DNA of 32,113 nucleotides from contig NZZV01000021.1 in assembly GCA_002698945.1 (NCBI GenBank), positions 1 to 32,113 of the forward strand. Direction: 5' to 3'. This document shows, in pieces, positions 16,801 to 21,963 of the stretch (position 1 is the first letter of the stretch; each line of letters starts with the position of its first letter). A program made the position numbers and the translations under genes. The notes under the pieces were generated by a model. It saw only the letters and a program-made list of their open reading frames with translations. It ran no database searches and had not been told where the DNA came from. This stretch comes from Acidimicrobiaceae bacterium (GTDB taxonomy: Bacteria > Actinomycetota > Acidimicrobiia > Acidimicrobiales > Ilumatobacteraceae).

Positions 16801-18409
16801 GATCGCGTTCACCGATCCGGTGCCGCACCCGCTCGAGTCGCTCGTCGGTCGCTTCGCCCGCACCCACGGCCCGTTCCTCGCCGTCGACGTCGCCCGTCGG
16901 TTCGCGGCCCCGGTCGAACGAATCGAGGGGGCGATCGCGGCGCTGGCCGCCGACGAGCGGGTGGTGCGTGGCGAGTTCCGGCCTGGTGGTGTGCAGCGCG
17001 AGTGGTGCGACGTCGACGTGCTGCGACAGCTCCGGCGACGGTCGTTGGCGATGCTGCGGCGCGAGGTCGAGCCGGTCGAACCGGATGCCCTTGCCCGTTT
17101 CCTGCCGGCTTGGCACGGTTGGGGCCGGACCCGACGCGGTCTCGACGGGCTGGTCGAGTCGATCGGACAGCTCGCCGGTGCACCGATGGTCGCCTCGACG
17201 GTCGAGCGCGACGTGTTGACGGGGCGAGTGCGGGACTTCTCCCCGGCGATGCTCGACGAGCTGTGCACCTCGGGTGAGGTCGTCTGGACCGGAGCCGGTG
17301 CGATCGGCAGTCGCGACGGTCGGATCCGCCTCTGCTTCGCCGACCAGCTCGCGCTGCTGGCACCGGGATGGGACACCGTCGATCCGCCCGACGGCCCACT
17401 GCACGACGCGTTGCGAACCCACCTCGCCGCCAACGGGGCCAGTTTCTGGAATGGCCTGCGTTCGGCGGCACCCGACGCGACCGACCAGGAACTGCTCGTC
17501 GCCTTGTGGGACCTCGCGTGGGCGGGCGAGGTCACCAACGACTCGCTCGCCCCACTGCGTCACCTGCTGAGCGGCGGTGGTGTGAAGGCGCCGAAGCGGC
17601 GCTCGGCGCGGTCCACTCGATCCGGTCGCGCTCGTCCGACCCGGCTCACGCGGCTCGGTCCACCGGCCGCCGCCGGGCGATGGAGCCTGGTCGCGCCACT
17701 CCTCGAACCGGCACCGACCTCGACCGAGGCGGCGCACGCGTCGGCGATGCAGCTGCTGGAGCGCTACGGCGTCGTCACACGCGAGTCCGTGCTGGCCGAG
17801 GGCGTCGTCGGTGGGTACGCCTCGGTGTATCCGGTGCTGAAGGTGCTCGAAGAGCGCGGACGTGCACGACGCGGCTACTTCGTCGCCGGACTGGGGGCAG
17901 CGCAGTTCGCCCTACCGGGAGCGATCGACCGGCTGCGTGCCGAACGCGATGACGGGCTGCGTGCCGAACGCGATGACGGGCTGCGTGCCGAACGCGATGA
18001 CGGGCTGCGTGCCGAACGCGATGACACCGACGCTCAGGCCGACGAGCCCGTGGTGATCGCGGCGACCGACCCCGCGCAGCCCTACGGTGCGGCGCTGGGG
18101 TGGCCGGAAAGTCCGGGTCGTCCGGCACGCACCGGTTCGGCTGTCGTGATCTTGCACCGCGGTGAGCTCGTCGGCTGGTTCGATCGGGCGAGTCACCATC
18201 TGGTCACGTTCGCGACGTCGTCGCCCGACCATCGCTGGGCCGACGGGCTGCGCTCGCTCGTGACCGACGGTCGACAGGCGAGCCTCGAGGTGCGCAAGGT
18301 GAACGGCGAACCGACACCTGGCGAAGTCGCCGACGTACTGGTCGAGCGTGGGTTCACCCAGGGGTACCGCGGGCCCATCCTGCGCGACGGGCCTGCTCGG
18401 CGCCGCTGA
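13874..18409 (+). CDS. lhr: Lhr family ATP-dependent helicase
   Basis: A 1511-residue superfamily II helicase of the 'long helicase-related' type, implicated in DNA repair. The N-terminal core has Walker A APTGSGKT (41-48), motif II DEIH (165-168), LSATQRPL (motif III), a conserved ATSSLELGIDMG block and QRIGRAGHQVG (motif VI). It is followed by the winged-helix and Lhr-specific C-terminal regions, reaching the full family length. The GTG start places FSPAVRAWF at the expected N-terminus; the exact first codon is uncertain. Near the C-terminus, residues about 1354-1385 consist of four copies of an eight-residue charged repeat (LRAERDDG) from an exact 24 bp tandem duplication. It sits just before the conserved VIAATDPAQPYGAALGWP block and probably forms a flexible loop. 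Confidence 0.93.
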   Translation: MLGAFSPAVRAWFASSFPEPTTAQVQGWPHIAAGEHTLICAPTGSGKTLTAFMASIDRLVTTPQPDERTHRTRVLYISPLRALAFDVEKNLRAPLTGIGLAAERIGESFTAPEVAMRTGDTPSNERQKLIRRPPDLLITTPESLYLMLTSSAADTLRGVETVIIDEIHAMATTKRGAHLALSLERLDEITDRSPQRIGLSATQRPLEEIARFLGGYDDDGSARPVRIVDAGIRKTLEVEVIVPVDDMGAPGDAATPLGQPGGGERRSSIWPSIYPRVLDLVLQHRSTIIFCNARRGAERLAAQLNELYEESHGEQAEELVKAHHGSLAREQRVVIEDQLKRGELRAIVATSSLELGIDMGAVDLVIQIESPGAVNRGLQRIGRAGHQVGEPSKGTIFPKHRGDLIEAAVVTRRMLDGEIEHSRYLRNPLDVLAQQIVAHAAARTEVSVDDVARLVRRCANFHEITDDLLHNVLDLLAGRYPSEEFSELRPRLVWDRVNDVLRARDGSKRLAVTSGGTIPDRGLYGVFLPDGARVGELDEEMVYESRPGETFVLGASTWRIEDISFERVTVTPAPGEPGKMPFWHGDRPGRPLELGRALGRFLRDVRELPDGDALERLQSDYALDPLAAQNVVSYLAEQAAATGVVPDDRTIVVERFRDEIGDWRVCVLSPFGTPVHAPWAMAIERRLVDQFDLPVETMWGDDGIVIRLPESADHIDADVFRIDPDEIDELVMSSLPQTSLFSARFRECAGRALLLPRRRPDQRTPLWQQRQRAADLLTVASKYPTFPILLETSRECLQDVFDVPALKEVLGQLQSRQIRLVQVDTGTSSPFASSLLFNWIAQYMYEGDAPLAERRAAALALDRDLLRELLGSEELRELLDPGVLADVELELQHLADGRRARSADELHDVFRRVGDLTISEVDARCEGSDGRGWVDELVRERRVIEIGIGDDVRYAAAEDAARYRDAFGCSIPVGLPIAFTDPVPHPLESLVGRFARTHGPFLAVDVARRFAAPVERIEGAIAALAADERVVRGEFRPGGVQREWCDVDVLRQLRRRSLAMLRREVEPVEPDALARFLPAWHGWGRTRRGLDGLVESIGQLAGAPMVASTVERDVLTGRVRDFSPAMLDELCTSGEVVWTGAGAIGSRDGRIRLCFADQLALLAPGWDTVDPPDGPLHDALRTHLAANGASFWNGLRSAAPDATDQELLVALWDLAWAGEVTNDSLAPLRHLLSGGGVKAPKRRSARSTRSGRARPTRLTRLGPPAAAGRWSLVAPLLEPAPTSTEAAHASAMQLLERYGVVTRESVLAEGVVGGYASVYPVLKVLEERGRARRGYFVAGLGAAQFALPGAIDRLRAERDDGLRAERDDGLRAERDDGLRAERDDTDAQADEPVVIAATDPAQPYGAALGWPESPGRPARTGSAVVILHRGELVGWFDRASHHLVTFATSSPDHRWADGLRSLVTDGRQASLEVRKVNGEPTPGEVADVLVERGFTQGYRGPILRDGPARRR
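17933..18028 (+). repeat. In-frame 4 x 24 bp tandem repeat inside lhr
   Basis: CTGCGTGCCGAACGCGATGA plus CGGG is repeated at 17933, 17957, 17981 and 18005; only the last three bases of the fourth copy differ. The unit length is divisible by three, so each copy adds Leu-Arg-Ala-Glu-Arg-Asp-Asp-Gly without breaking the frame. The near-perfect nucleotide identity indicates recent expansion. Confidence 0.95.
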
Positions 18410-19493: not shown

Positions 19494-20087
19494 TCAGCGG
19501 CGTTCGCGGTCGACGGCGCGAAGACCCGCCCAGGCGAGCTGGCTCACGACGCGGGCGATCTCGTCGGGGTCGAAGCTCTCCCCCGCGCCGACCAGACGGC
19601 GGCTGGCGCCCTCGGCCAGACCCACCAGGCCGTGGGCGATGGTCTCGCGATGGGCCGGGTCGAGATCGACGTCGATCAACCCGGCGATCGCGGTGGCGGC
19701 CGCCTCGTTGATGCGTCGGATCTGAGCCGCGAACTCACCCTCCTGGCGGGCGCTGCCACCGAACAGGAGGGTGAACTCCAGATGGTGGTCGGCGACCCAG
19801 CCGAAGTAGGCGGCGAACCCGCGCTCGGTGCGTTCGCGCCCGTCGGCGGCATCGGTCGTGGCCTTGGCGATCGTCTCGAGCAACCGCGTGCCCACCTCGT
19901 CGAGCAGGGCGCGGTAGAGGTCGGCCTTGCTGTCGAAGTGTTGGTAGAGCACCGGCTTGGTGACACCGGCGGCCTCGGCGATGTCGTTCATCGAGGTGCC
20001 GAAGTACCCCGAGCGCCCGAACTCGTCGATCGCGACGTCGAGGATCTGTTGGCGTCGTGCGTCAGCGGTGAGGCGGGGCGAGCTCAT
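19494..20087 (-). CDS. TetR family transcriptional regulator
   Basis: A 197-residue dimeric repressor. The N-terminal helix-turn-helix is clear: ILDVAIDEFGRSGYFGTS, then MNDIAEAAGVTKPVLYQHF (about residues 15-57), then SKADLYRALLDEVG. The C-terminal ligand domain is divergent and gives no ligand clue. An inverted repeat GTTACC-N4-GGTAAC lies 2 bp upstream of the ATG and overlaps the -10-like TACCCT, so the protein probably represses itself. Neighbours on the same strand are a small membrane protein upstream and the diguanylate cyclase downstream. The enoyl-CoA hydratase gene, transcribed the other way, may be a further target, as many TetR regulators of this type control acyl-CoA genes; that is inference. 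Confidence 0.9.
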   Translation of the reverse strand: MSSPRLTADARRQQILDVAIDEFGRSGYFGTSMNDIAEAAGVTKPVLYQHFDSKADLYRALLDEVGTRLLETIAKATTDAADGRERTERGFAAYFGWVADHHLEFTLLFGGSARQEGEFAAQIRRINEAAATAIAGLIDVDLDPAHRETIAHGLVGLAEGASRRLVGAGESFDPDEIARVVSQLAWAGLRAVDRERR

Positions 20088-20089
20088 GA

Positions 20090-20105
20090 GTTACCGAAGG
20101 GTAAC
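20090..20105 (-). promoter_or_regulatory. Operator-like inverted repeat at the TetR gene start
   Basis: GTTACC (20090-20095) and GGTAAC (20100-20105) are exact inverted repeats around GAAG. On the minus strand the repeat contains TACCCT (20098-20103), a -10-like box ending 10 nt before the TetR ATG. Binding here would occlude the promoter. Confidence 0.65.
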
Positions 20106-20143: not shown

Positions 20144-20437
20144 TCAGAAGCCCCGTTCGACGTCGTCGCGTTCGGCGGCCTTGACGGCGTAGCCGAGGAC
20201 GATACTGGGCGCGAGCAGGATGAACGACACCACGAGCGATCCGATGATCAGGCTCGCCATCGTCGGGCTGAACCCGAACGCGAAGGCGATGACGAACAGC
20301 GCCATCGCGAGCGCCAGGAGGAGGTAGCCGACCCGGTTGGCGAGCAGTGTCCACTTGGCGAACTGCGCCCGGCGTCGCCGAACCGGGTCGTCATCCGGGG
20401 CGCTGTTCGATGCGGGCGTCGGCGGGCGGCTGCTCAT
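20144..20437 (-). CDS. Small two-helix membrane protein of unknown function
   Basis: A 97-residue protein not assigned to a known family. Residues 1-25 are polar and basic (PTPASNSAPDDDPVRRRR). Two hydrophobic helices follow (about 32-54, LANRVGYLLLALAMALFVIA; and about 58-84, with LIIGSLVVSFILLAPSIVLG), joined by a tight GFSPTM turn. The C-terminus is short and charged (KAAERDDVERGF). Both ends should face the cytosol by the positive-inside rule. The ATG is 12 bp from the divergent enoyl-CoA hydratase start, leaving no room for a ribosome binding site. The TetR gene follows 56 bp downstream on the same strand, so co-regulation is possible. Confidence 0.75.
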   Translation of the reverse strand: MSSRPPTPASNSAPDDDPVRRRRAQFAKWTLLANRVGYLLLALAMALFVIAFAFGFSPTMASLIIGSLVVSFILLAPSIVLGYAVKAAERDDVERGF

Positions 20438-20455
20438 AGTGTGCGGCACATGGTA
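20435..20455. promoter_or_regulatory. Divergent start region with interlocked -10-like boxes
   Basis: Plus strand: TAGTGT (20437-20442) ends 7 nt before the hydratase ATG at 20450. Minus strand: TACCAT (complement of 20450-20455) ends 12 nt before the small membrane protein ATG (20435-20437). Each box overlaps the other gene's start codon, so the two promoters should exclude each other if both are used. Confidence 0.4.
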
Positions 20456-21184
20456 CGGGTGGACGAGCGCGACGACATCGGCACCGGCGTGGTGGTGATC
20501 ACGCTCGATCGGCCCGACCGGCGCAATGCGGTCGACCACGAGACACTCCTCGCGTTGCTCGCCGCGCAGCGAGCCCACCGTGATGCTCGGGTGATCGTGC
20601 TCACCGGCGCCCCGCCGGCGTTCTGCGCCGGCGCCGACCTGCAAGGGGTGCGCGAGGACGTCTTCTCGGCCGACCTGCGACGGGTCCTGCACGGGTTCAC
20701 CGAGTTGCCGTGCCCGGTCGTGGCGTCGATCGACGGCCCGGCATTGGGCGCCGGTGCGCAACTCGTCGCCGTGGCCGACCTGCGGATGTCGACGCCCGGC
20801 TCGGTCATCGGCATCCCCGCCGCCAAGCTCGGTCTCGTCGTCGAGCAGTGGACGATCGACCGGATCGCCCGCGAGTTCGGTGCCTCGGTCGCACGCGGCA
20901 TGTTCGTCGGGGCGGAGATGTATCGCGGCGAGCGGCTCCACACGATGGGCGCCGTCCACCGGCTCGGGCACCTGGACGACGCGCTCGAATGGGCCGGTGA
21001 GCTGGCACGCCTCGCTCCGTTGAGCCTGGCCGGGCACAAGGTCGCACTGGAGGCGATCGCCGCCGGCCGCACCGACGATGCGGCGGCTACCGCGGCGCGC
21101 GAGCGAGCCTGGGCGAGCGACGACGCCGCCGAGGGACGTCAAGCGTTCCTCGAGAAGCGGTCGCCCGAGTTTCGCGGCCGGTAG
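20450..21184 (+). CDS. Enoyl-CoA hydratase/isomerase family protein
   Basis: A 244-residue crotonase-fold protein. The strand-helix start VVVITLDRPDRRNAVD is typical. The two oxyanion-hole segments are present: FCAGADLQGV and IDGPALGAGAQLVAVADLRM. The segment that normally carries the catalytic GxGGTQRL loop instead reads KLGLVVEQWTIDRI, so hydratase activity is uncertain and another crotonase reaction is possible. The start is ATG at 20450; a GTG three codons later is the alternative. No ribosome binding site is present and a -10-like TAGTGT lies 7 nt upstream. Proteins of this size with a rearranged catalytic loop are often annotated only as enoyl-CoA hydratase-like. Confidence 0.85.
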   Translation: MVRVDERDDIGTGVVVITLDRPDRRNAVDHETLLALLAAQRAHRDARVIVLTGAPPAFCAGADLQGVREDVFSADLRRVLHGFTELPCPVVASIDGPALGAGAQLVAVADLRMSTPGSVIGIPAAKLGLVVEQWTIDRIAREFGASVARGMFVGAEMYRGERLHTMGAVHRLGHLDDALEWAGELARLAPLSLAGHKVALEAIAAGRTDDAAATAARERAWASDDAAEGRQAFLEKRSPEFRGR

Positions 21185-21807: not shown

Positions 21808-21963
21808 GTCGGTTGAGGTCAGACCCCAACCGACGAGCCTGATGTGGTCTTCCGGACCTTGTCGGTCGGTTGGGGTCTGACCTCAACCGACCATCCAACC
21901 GACGAGCCTGATGTGGTCTTCCGGACCTTGTCGGTCGGTTGGGGTCTGACCTCAACCGACCAT
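21808..21963. repeat. Inverted 27 bp near-palindromes with an exact 69 bp tandem duplication
   Basis: A 27 bp near-palindrome (21808-21834, GTCGGTTGAGGTC-A-GACCCC...) is followed after 30 nt by its exact reverse complement (21865-21891) and by a second copy (21934-21960). Positions 21826-21894 and 21895-21963 are identical 69 bp direct repeats. Each 27-mer has only one mismatch between its own halves. The element lies between convergent genes, ends 7 bp before the sortase stop codon, and could form hairpins in transcripts from either side. Confidence 0.94.

Follow-up and report, generated by a model that had tools for sequence, protein, structure and literature searches.

A candidate minimal bidirectional promoter with interlocked -10 boxes and start codons between a small membrane protein gene and an EchA6-like hydratase gene of Ilumatobacteraceae

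The start codons of a small membrane-type protein gene and of a divergently oriented EchA6-like hydratase gene lie only 12 bp apart in a 32,113-nucleotide stretch of DNA from Ilumatobacteraceae (hereinafter the window), which raises the question of how both genes could be transcribed and translated from so short a region. From position 20435 the sequence reads CAT AGTGTGCGGCAC ATG GTA CGG, with GCTGCT just 5' of it (features in Table 1). No Shine-Dalgarno-like run is found in the 12-bp gap, which has no room for such a sequence on either strand. A preliminary description had proposed that the gap is too small for two ordinary promoters and ribosome sites, and that each gene has a -10 box overlapping the start codon of the other. 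The start codons are indeed spaced as described, the gap, which is too short for two such promoters with their ribosome sites, is maintained in type-A relatives, and the reciprocal overlap is both real and conserved. The plus-strand box TAGTGT stops 7 nt short of the plus ATG; its first T is paired with the A of the minus start codon and its last T with the predicted minus start A20442. The minus-strand box TACCAT spans the plus ATG and codon 2 (GTA) and is 12 nt from the minus ATG; it does overlap the plus start codon, although it begins in codon 2 and ends in the ATG rather than beginning there as had been stated. In the window these are two separate -10 boxes with 7 bp between them, not a shared pseudo-symmetric -10 element, and the predicted start sites are 8 bp apart.

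Table 1. Features of the divergent locus and related sites (window positions unless a genome or locus is named)
Feature	Position	Strand	Basis or remark
Gap between start codons	20438-20449	none	12 bp; 11-13 bp in type-A relatives
Small membrane-type protein gene, 97 aa	20144..20437	-	ORF; ATG at 20437-20435
EchA6-like crotonase/enoyl-CoA hydratase-family gene	20450..21184	+	ECH_1; ATG 20450-20452; predicted leaderless
Predicted hydratase -10 box TAGTGT	20437..20442	+	Conserved TANNNT spacing and genome-wide peak
Predicted membrane-gene -10 box TACCAT	20455-20450	-	TANCAT kept in 48/60 adjacent loci
Predicted plus transcription start, A of ATG	20450	+	Inferred from leaderless spacing rule
Predicted minus transcription start A, leader ACACT	20442	-	Inferred, 7 nt after TACCAT
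TetR-family gene, FasR-like	19494..20087	-	TetR_N; NCBIfam FasR 122 bits
Probable TetR operator GTTACCGAAGGGTAAC	20090..20105	none	GTTACCN4GGTAAC; outside divergent promoter
Further GTTACCN4GGTAAC sites	G001 C1:745410, 1039740, 3269895; G021 C1:2147820, 3908104, 4207896; G009 C1:3814990, 4333491		
Mini-ORFs 5' of hydratase	L010, L011, L025, L111-L114, L116, L117, L156-L158, L160, L161, L164-L166, L168		

We consider it probable that a pair of facing -10 boxes, 6-8 bp apart (7 in the window), makes up a minimal bidirectional promoter in this region. A polymerase oriented towards the plus gene would use TAGTGT and start at A20450, yielding a leaderless hydratase mRNA with a 5' AUG, and one in the minus orientation would use TACCAT and start at about A20442, yielding a membrane-protein mRNA with the leader ACACU directly before its AUG. 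Ribosomes would load at the 5' end of each mRNA with no Shine-Dalgarno sequence. As each start-site A would be paired with the last T of the opposite -10 box, the promoters would interpenetrate and only one is expected to be open at a time; the predicted melted regions also cover the same DNA, so that two polymerases presumably could not open it at once. Such an arrangement would need no more than 21 bp for the two promoters and both translation starts, with single bases belonging at once to a start codon and a -10 box and marking a transcription start.

The pattern CATANNNTN{5,9}ATG matches once in the window against 0.15 expected, and the stricter CATANNNTN{5,9}ATGGTA matches once in the 4.36-Mb genome, at the divergent site, with no match to the reversed control. 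We sampled 90 membrane-gene loci from the family, 60 of them with an adjacent hydratase gene and 27 with none nearby. The block CATANNNTN6-8ATG[GC]TA is present in 48 of the 60 adjacent loci, across 13 genera of Ilumatobacteraceae, versus 3 of the 27. This conservation, together with the genome-wide uniqueness, rules out a chance origin. Among the other 12 adjacent loci, that of G013 lacks the TA only, so that the plus side is present and the minus TANNNT absent; nine (eight of g22, one of g13) are leaderless in some other arrangement, and the remaining two show no such arrangement. Of the 60, 58 have a plus-side TANNNT that is followed after 6-8 nt by the start codon. Of the three hydratase-less loci carrying the block, L017 (G035) keeps the first codons of the hydratase, followed by sortase-gene-like sequence, and is likely a deletion fossil; the other two are L159 and L163. 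Across the family CATANNNTN5-9ATGGTA occurs in 81 of 221 genomes and 17 of 27 genera, a count that includes chance matches in the AT-richer genomes. Members of the genus with the block at the divergent locus carry it once per genome, and since CATANNNTN6-8ATGNTA is mostly confined to that locus, a class of sites that recurs throughout the genome in precisely this geometry can be rejected; one further case with a 12-bp gap (G001, about 118942) has the plus box only. Placed on a tree built from the membrane and TetR proteins, the element occurs in both of the deep divisions of the family and is missing here and there, a distribution that fits an early origin and repeated loss. The orthologous divergent locus shows three architectures in all, namely the interlocked form, a shared symmetric TAGCGTA -10 box in some g13 relatives (L013, L118), and mostly canonical leaderless GTG starts set further apart in g22 (L024, L131-L137).

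In 52 aligned elements the spacer between the facing boxes is 6 bp (n=23), 7 bp (n=17) or 8 bp (n=12), and the only invariant positions are those expected of two TANNNT boxes and two start codons, the rest of the gap varying freely. This pattern bears on the idea that the block is mainly the binding site of an unknown regulator, for which the inverted repeat formed by TGTGCGGCACA within the gap of the window might speak; given the free variation of the gap in relatives we regard this as very improbable. No conserved -35 element was detected on either side of the aligned elements, and the weak signals in the flanks, considered as candidate -35 boxes, sit in codons of the neighbouring protein sequences.

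The plus side of the proposed bidirectional promoter conforms to a pattern seen elsewhere in these genomes. Leaderless genes of Actinobacteria (Cortes 2013, PMC3898074; Shell 2015, PMC4633059) have TANNNT, no conserved -35 element and transcription starting at the AUG or GUG. In 400 kb of the same-genus genome G001, used as background, TANNNT precedes coding-like ATG codons 9, 15 and 6 times at spacings of 6, 7 and 8 nt, as against about 0.5 per other spacing, and GTG codons 3, 11 and 3 times; with a less refined gene set, 53 leaderless-like starts were counted versus 2.7 expected from control spacings. This peak suggests the use of leaderless promoters like those mapped in Mycobacterium tuberculosis (PMC3898074). 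With TANNNT 7 nt before its ATG, the hydratase gene falls within the 6-8 nt range that defines leaderless starts here, and its mRNA is predicted to be leaderless.

The possibility that both genes are leaderless hence survives for the hydratase, as a prediction from a spacing at the genome-wide peak, and fails for the membrane gene, whose -10 box precedes the ATG by 11-13 nt in all type-A relatives, outside the 6-8 nt range, so that a strictly leaderless minus gene is rejected. The spacing instead points to a likely transcript with a constant 5-nt leader, ANNNT-AUG, which would still fit the 5-bp definition of leaderless in PMC3898074. Since one end of each box falls on the start codon of the other gene, the minus spacer always equals the plus spacer plus 5; the A at the minus start owes its invariance to its pairing with the final T of the plus -10 box. 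Spacings of 11-13 nt to the start codon are unenriched in the 400 kb of G001 (2, 0 and 1 cases), and it is thus the divergent locus that suggests the leader. In g23 and most of g25, where the membrane gene occurs without the hydratase, a TANNNT of its own precedes it by 6-8 nt, which makes the 5-nt shift specific to the interlocked form.

Codon 2 of the hydratase is NTA (GTA or CTA) in 48 of 49 type-A loci with an adjacent hydratase, a fairer figure than one from the 52-element set, which was picked by a pattern containing TA. GTA makes up 1.0% of valine and CTA 0.4% of leucine codons, NTA amounts to 0.15% of codons, and NTA is absent from codon 2 in all 53 other leaderless-like genes; Val-to-Leu changes at this position keep the TA. 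As mycobacterial reporter libraries revealed no downstream sequence preference in leaderless translation (PMC4633059), translation does not account for this codon choice, and given its rarity the minus -10 box appears to be selected as DNA. In g22, with its different geometry, codon 2 is not NTA, and in G007 it is ATC, the hydratase being present and the membrane gene not found in a genome that is 74% complete. A change of GTA to GTC, silent in the hydratase, turns TACCAT into GACCAT on the minus strand and should remove one promoter while leaving both proteins untouched, and the element would thereby lend itself, in Actinomycetota, to a clean natural experiment on competition between polymerases at a bidirectional promoter.

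The codon argument is weakened by G003 and G008, in which the hydratase gene has moved away from the membrane gene and ATGGTA is still kept; according to the tree the two share one separation event, and the sequence may be residual. The retention of ATGGTACGGGT in these genomes would also suit a reading in which the plus promoter alone is real, ATGGTA is kept for the Met-Val-Arg N-terminus of the hydratase and transcription of the membrane gene begins at some other place, as would the membrane genes of g11, g9 and g15, which are located after a sortase gene and have no TANNNT at 5-14 nt. We judge this reading unlikely, given that GTA and CTA are so rare, that the amino acid varies while the TA stays, and that nothing other than the divergent hydratase gene lies 5' of the membrane gene in the window. 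Against it also stands the retention of ATGGTA in loci where it lies outside the hydratase frame and starts no more than a mini-ORF. Such drift of the N-terminal frame is seen in 18 loci from six genera (g6, g8, g13, g17, g18 and g21), where the conserved ATG is the first codon of an ORF only 6-26 codons long. In nearly all of them, G163 being less clear, the stop codon of this ORF and the start of the hydratase gene overlap (ATGA, TGATG or GTGA). The same kind of overlap, GTGA, occurs on the membrane-gene side in G001 and G004 (L002, L003). This organization predicts translational coupling of the mini-ORF and the main gene, the start codon being kept as the frame drifts, and argues that both conserved ATGs are in use. 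The preservation of start codons as overlapping mini-ORFs thus offers evidence of leaderless ribosome loading in a little-studied family.

Compared with known systems, the proposed minimal bidirectional promoter is closest to the bacterial bidirectional promoters described by Warman and Grainger (PMC12825309, PMC10268837), in which one short stretch likewise recruits polymerase facing either way, binding in one direction excludes binding in the other and starts lie within or beside elements of the other promoter. Those promoters share one -10 box, with common start-site distances of 18, 10 and 23 bp; unlike them, the present site has two separate facing -10 boxes built into start codons, and the predicted distance in relatives is 7-9 bp if transcription starts 6-8 nt past the box both ways. 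The TANNNT boxes and the want of a conserved -35 element are shared with the leaderless genes of Actinobacteria, among which small leaderless ORFs also occur (PMC3898074, PMC4633059); unlike in those genes, the leaderless start codon here doubles as part of the opposite promoter. The M. tuberculosis pair Rv1130/Rv1129c is likewise divergent, with both transcripts leaderless; the available text of PMC3898074 describes no reciprocal overlap of start codons and -10 boxes in it. Two divergent pairs of G001 (C1 about 433790, L107, and 458180, L108) have leaderless-type TANNNT boxes for both genes and gaps of 24-27 bp, but their boxes are back to back between the starts and do not interpenetrate. 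On comparative grounds the interlocked site is a conserved divergent-promoter candidate, expected to operate as known bacterial bidirectional promoters do, and would be a very compact variant among bacterial bidirectional promoters, the facing start-codon boxes being its new feature. The bolder proposal of a novel class of bidirectional promoter, with facing -10 boxes in start codons, starts 7-9 bp apart, exclusive initiation setting the ratio of the two proteins and family-wide selection, is one that we put forward only tentatively.

Whether exclusive initiation amounts to regulation is a separate matter. The preliminary description envisaged an either/or switch, in which binding in one direction represses the other, so that membrane protein or hydratase is made, with the adjacent TetR protein biasing the outcome. 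The overlap does make simultaneous open complexes implausible on geometric grounds, and in E. coli strong activation in one direction can repress the other (PMC12825309). However, none of the five E. coli bidirectional promoters tested had enough basal activity for polymerases to compete (PMC12825309), the flanks of the boxes hold no additional conserved site, and the arrangement has been lost or relaxed in several lineages; the switch is left unsupported and we consider it doubtful. Nor does the TetR gene lend it weight. Its product is a homologue of FasR only (122.4 bits against the equivalog cut-off of 330 in NCBIfam), and the gene neighbours the membrane gene at almost every locus examined, whether the hydratase is present or not. 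GTTACCN4GGTAAC or a near form occurs at the tetR start in many loci, in the window about 340 bp from the divergent promoter; no such site lies inside that promoter even with two mismatches allowed, so that its control by TetR is likewise unsupported. In ten genomes the exact motif occurs 1-4 times per genome, with no reversed-control matches. Other sites are located next to genes that resemble those of acyl-CoA dehydrogenase, crotonyl-CoA reductase, thiolase and methylmalonyl-CoA mutase. The sites probably constitute the regulon of the FasR-like protein, and their position at tetR and acyl-CoA genes, not at the divergent promoter, again speaks against the switch.

The plus protein matches ECH_1 of Pfam (E 3.3e-36), and its best PDB match is echA6 (3he2, E 3e-41); with 217.8 bits against a cut-off of 237 for the EchA6-type equivalog NF005891 of NCBIfam it is a close relative only. 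The 97-aa minus protein has no Pfam family match, and its homologues occur in 192 of 221 genomes of the family and in all 27 genera. It bears a weak resemblance to NADH dehydrogenase subunit A (24.6 bits, below the cut-off of 101). Elsewhere in the window, two near-identical direct copies with GGTTGGGGTCTGACCTCAACC-type inverted repeats lie at about 21813-21962, between a DUF6886 gene and a sortase gene, and an in-frame tandem repeat of GLRAERDD, in about four copies, is found at about 17900-18130 near the C-terminus of an Lhr-type helicase.
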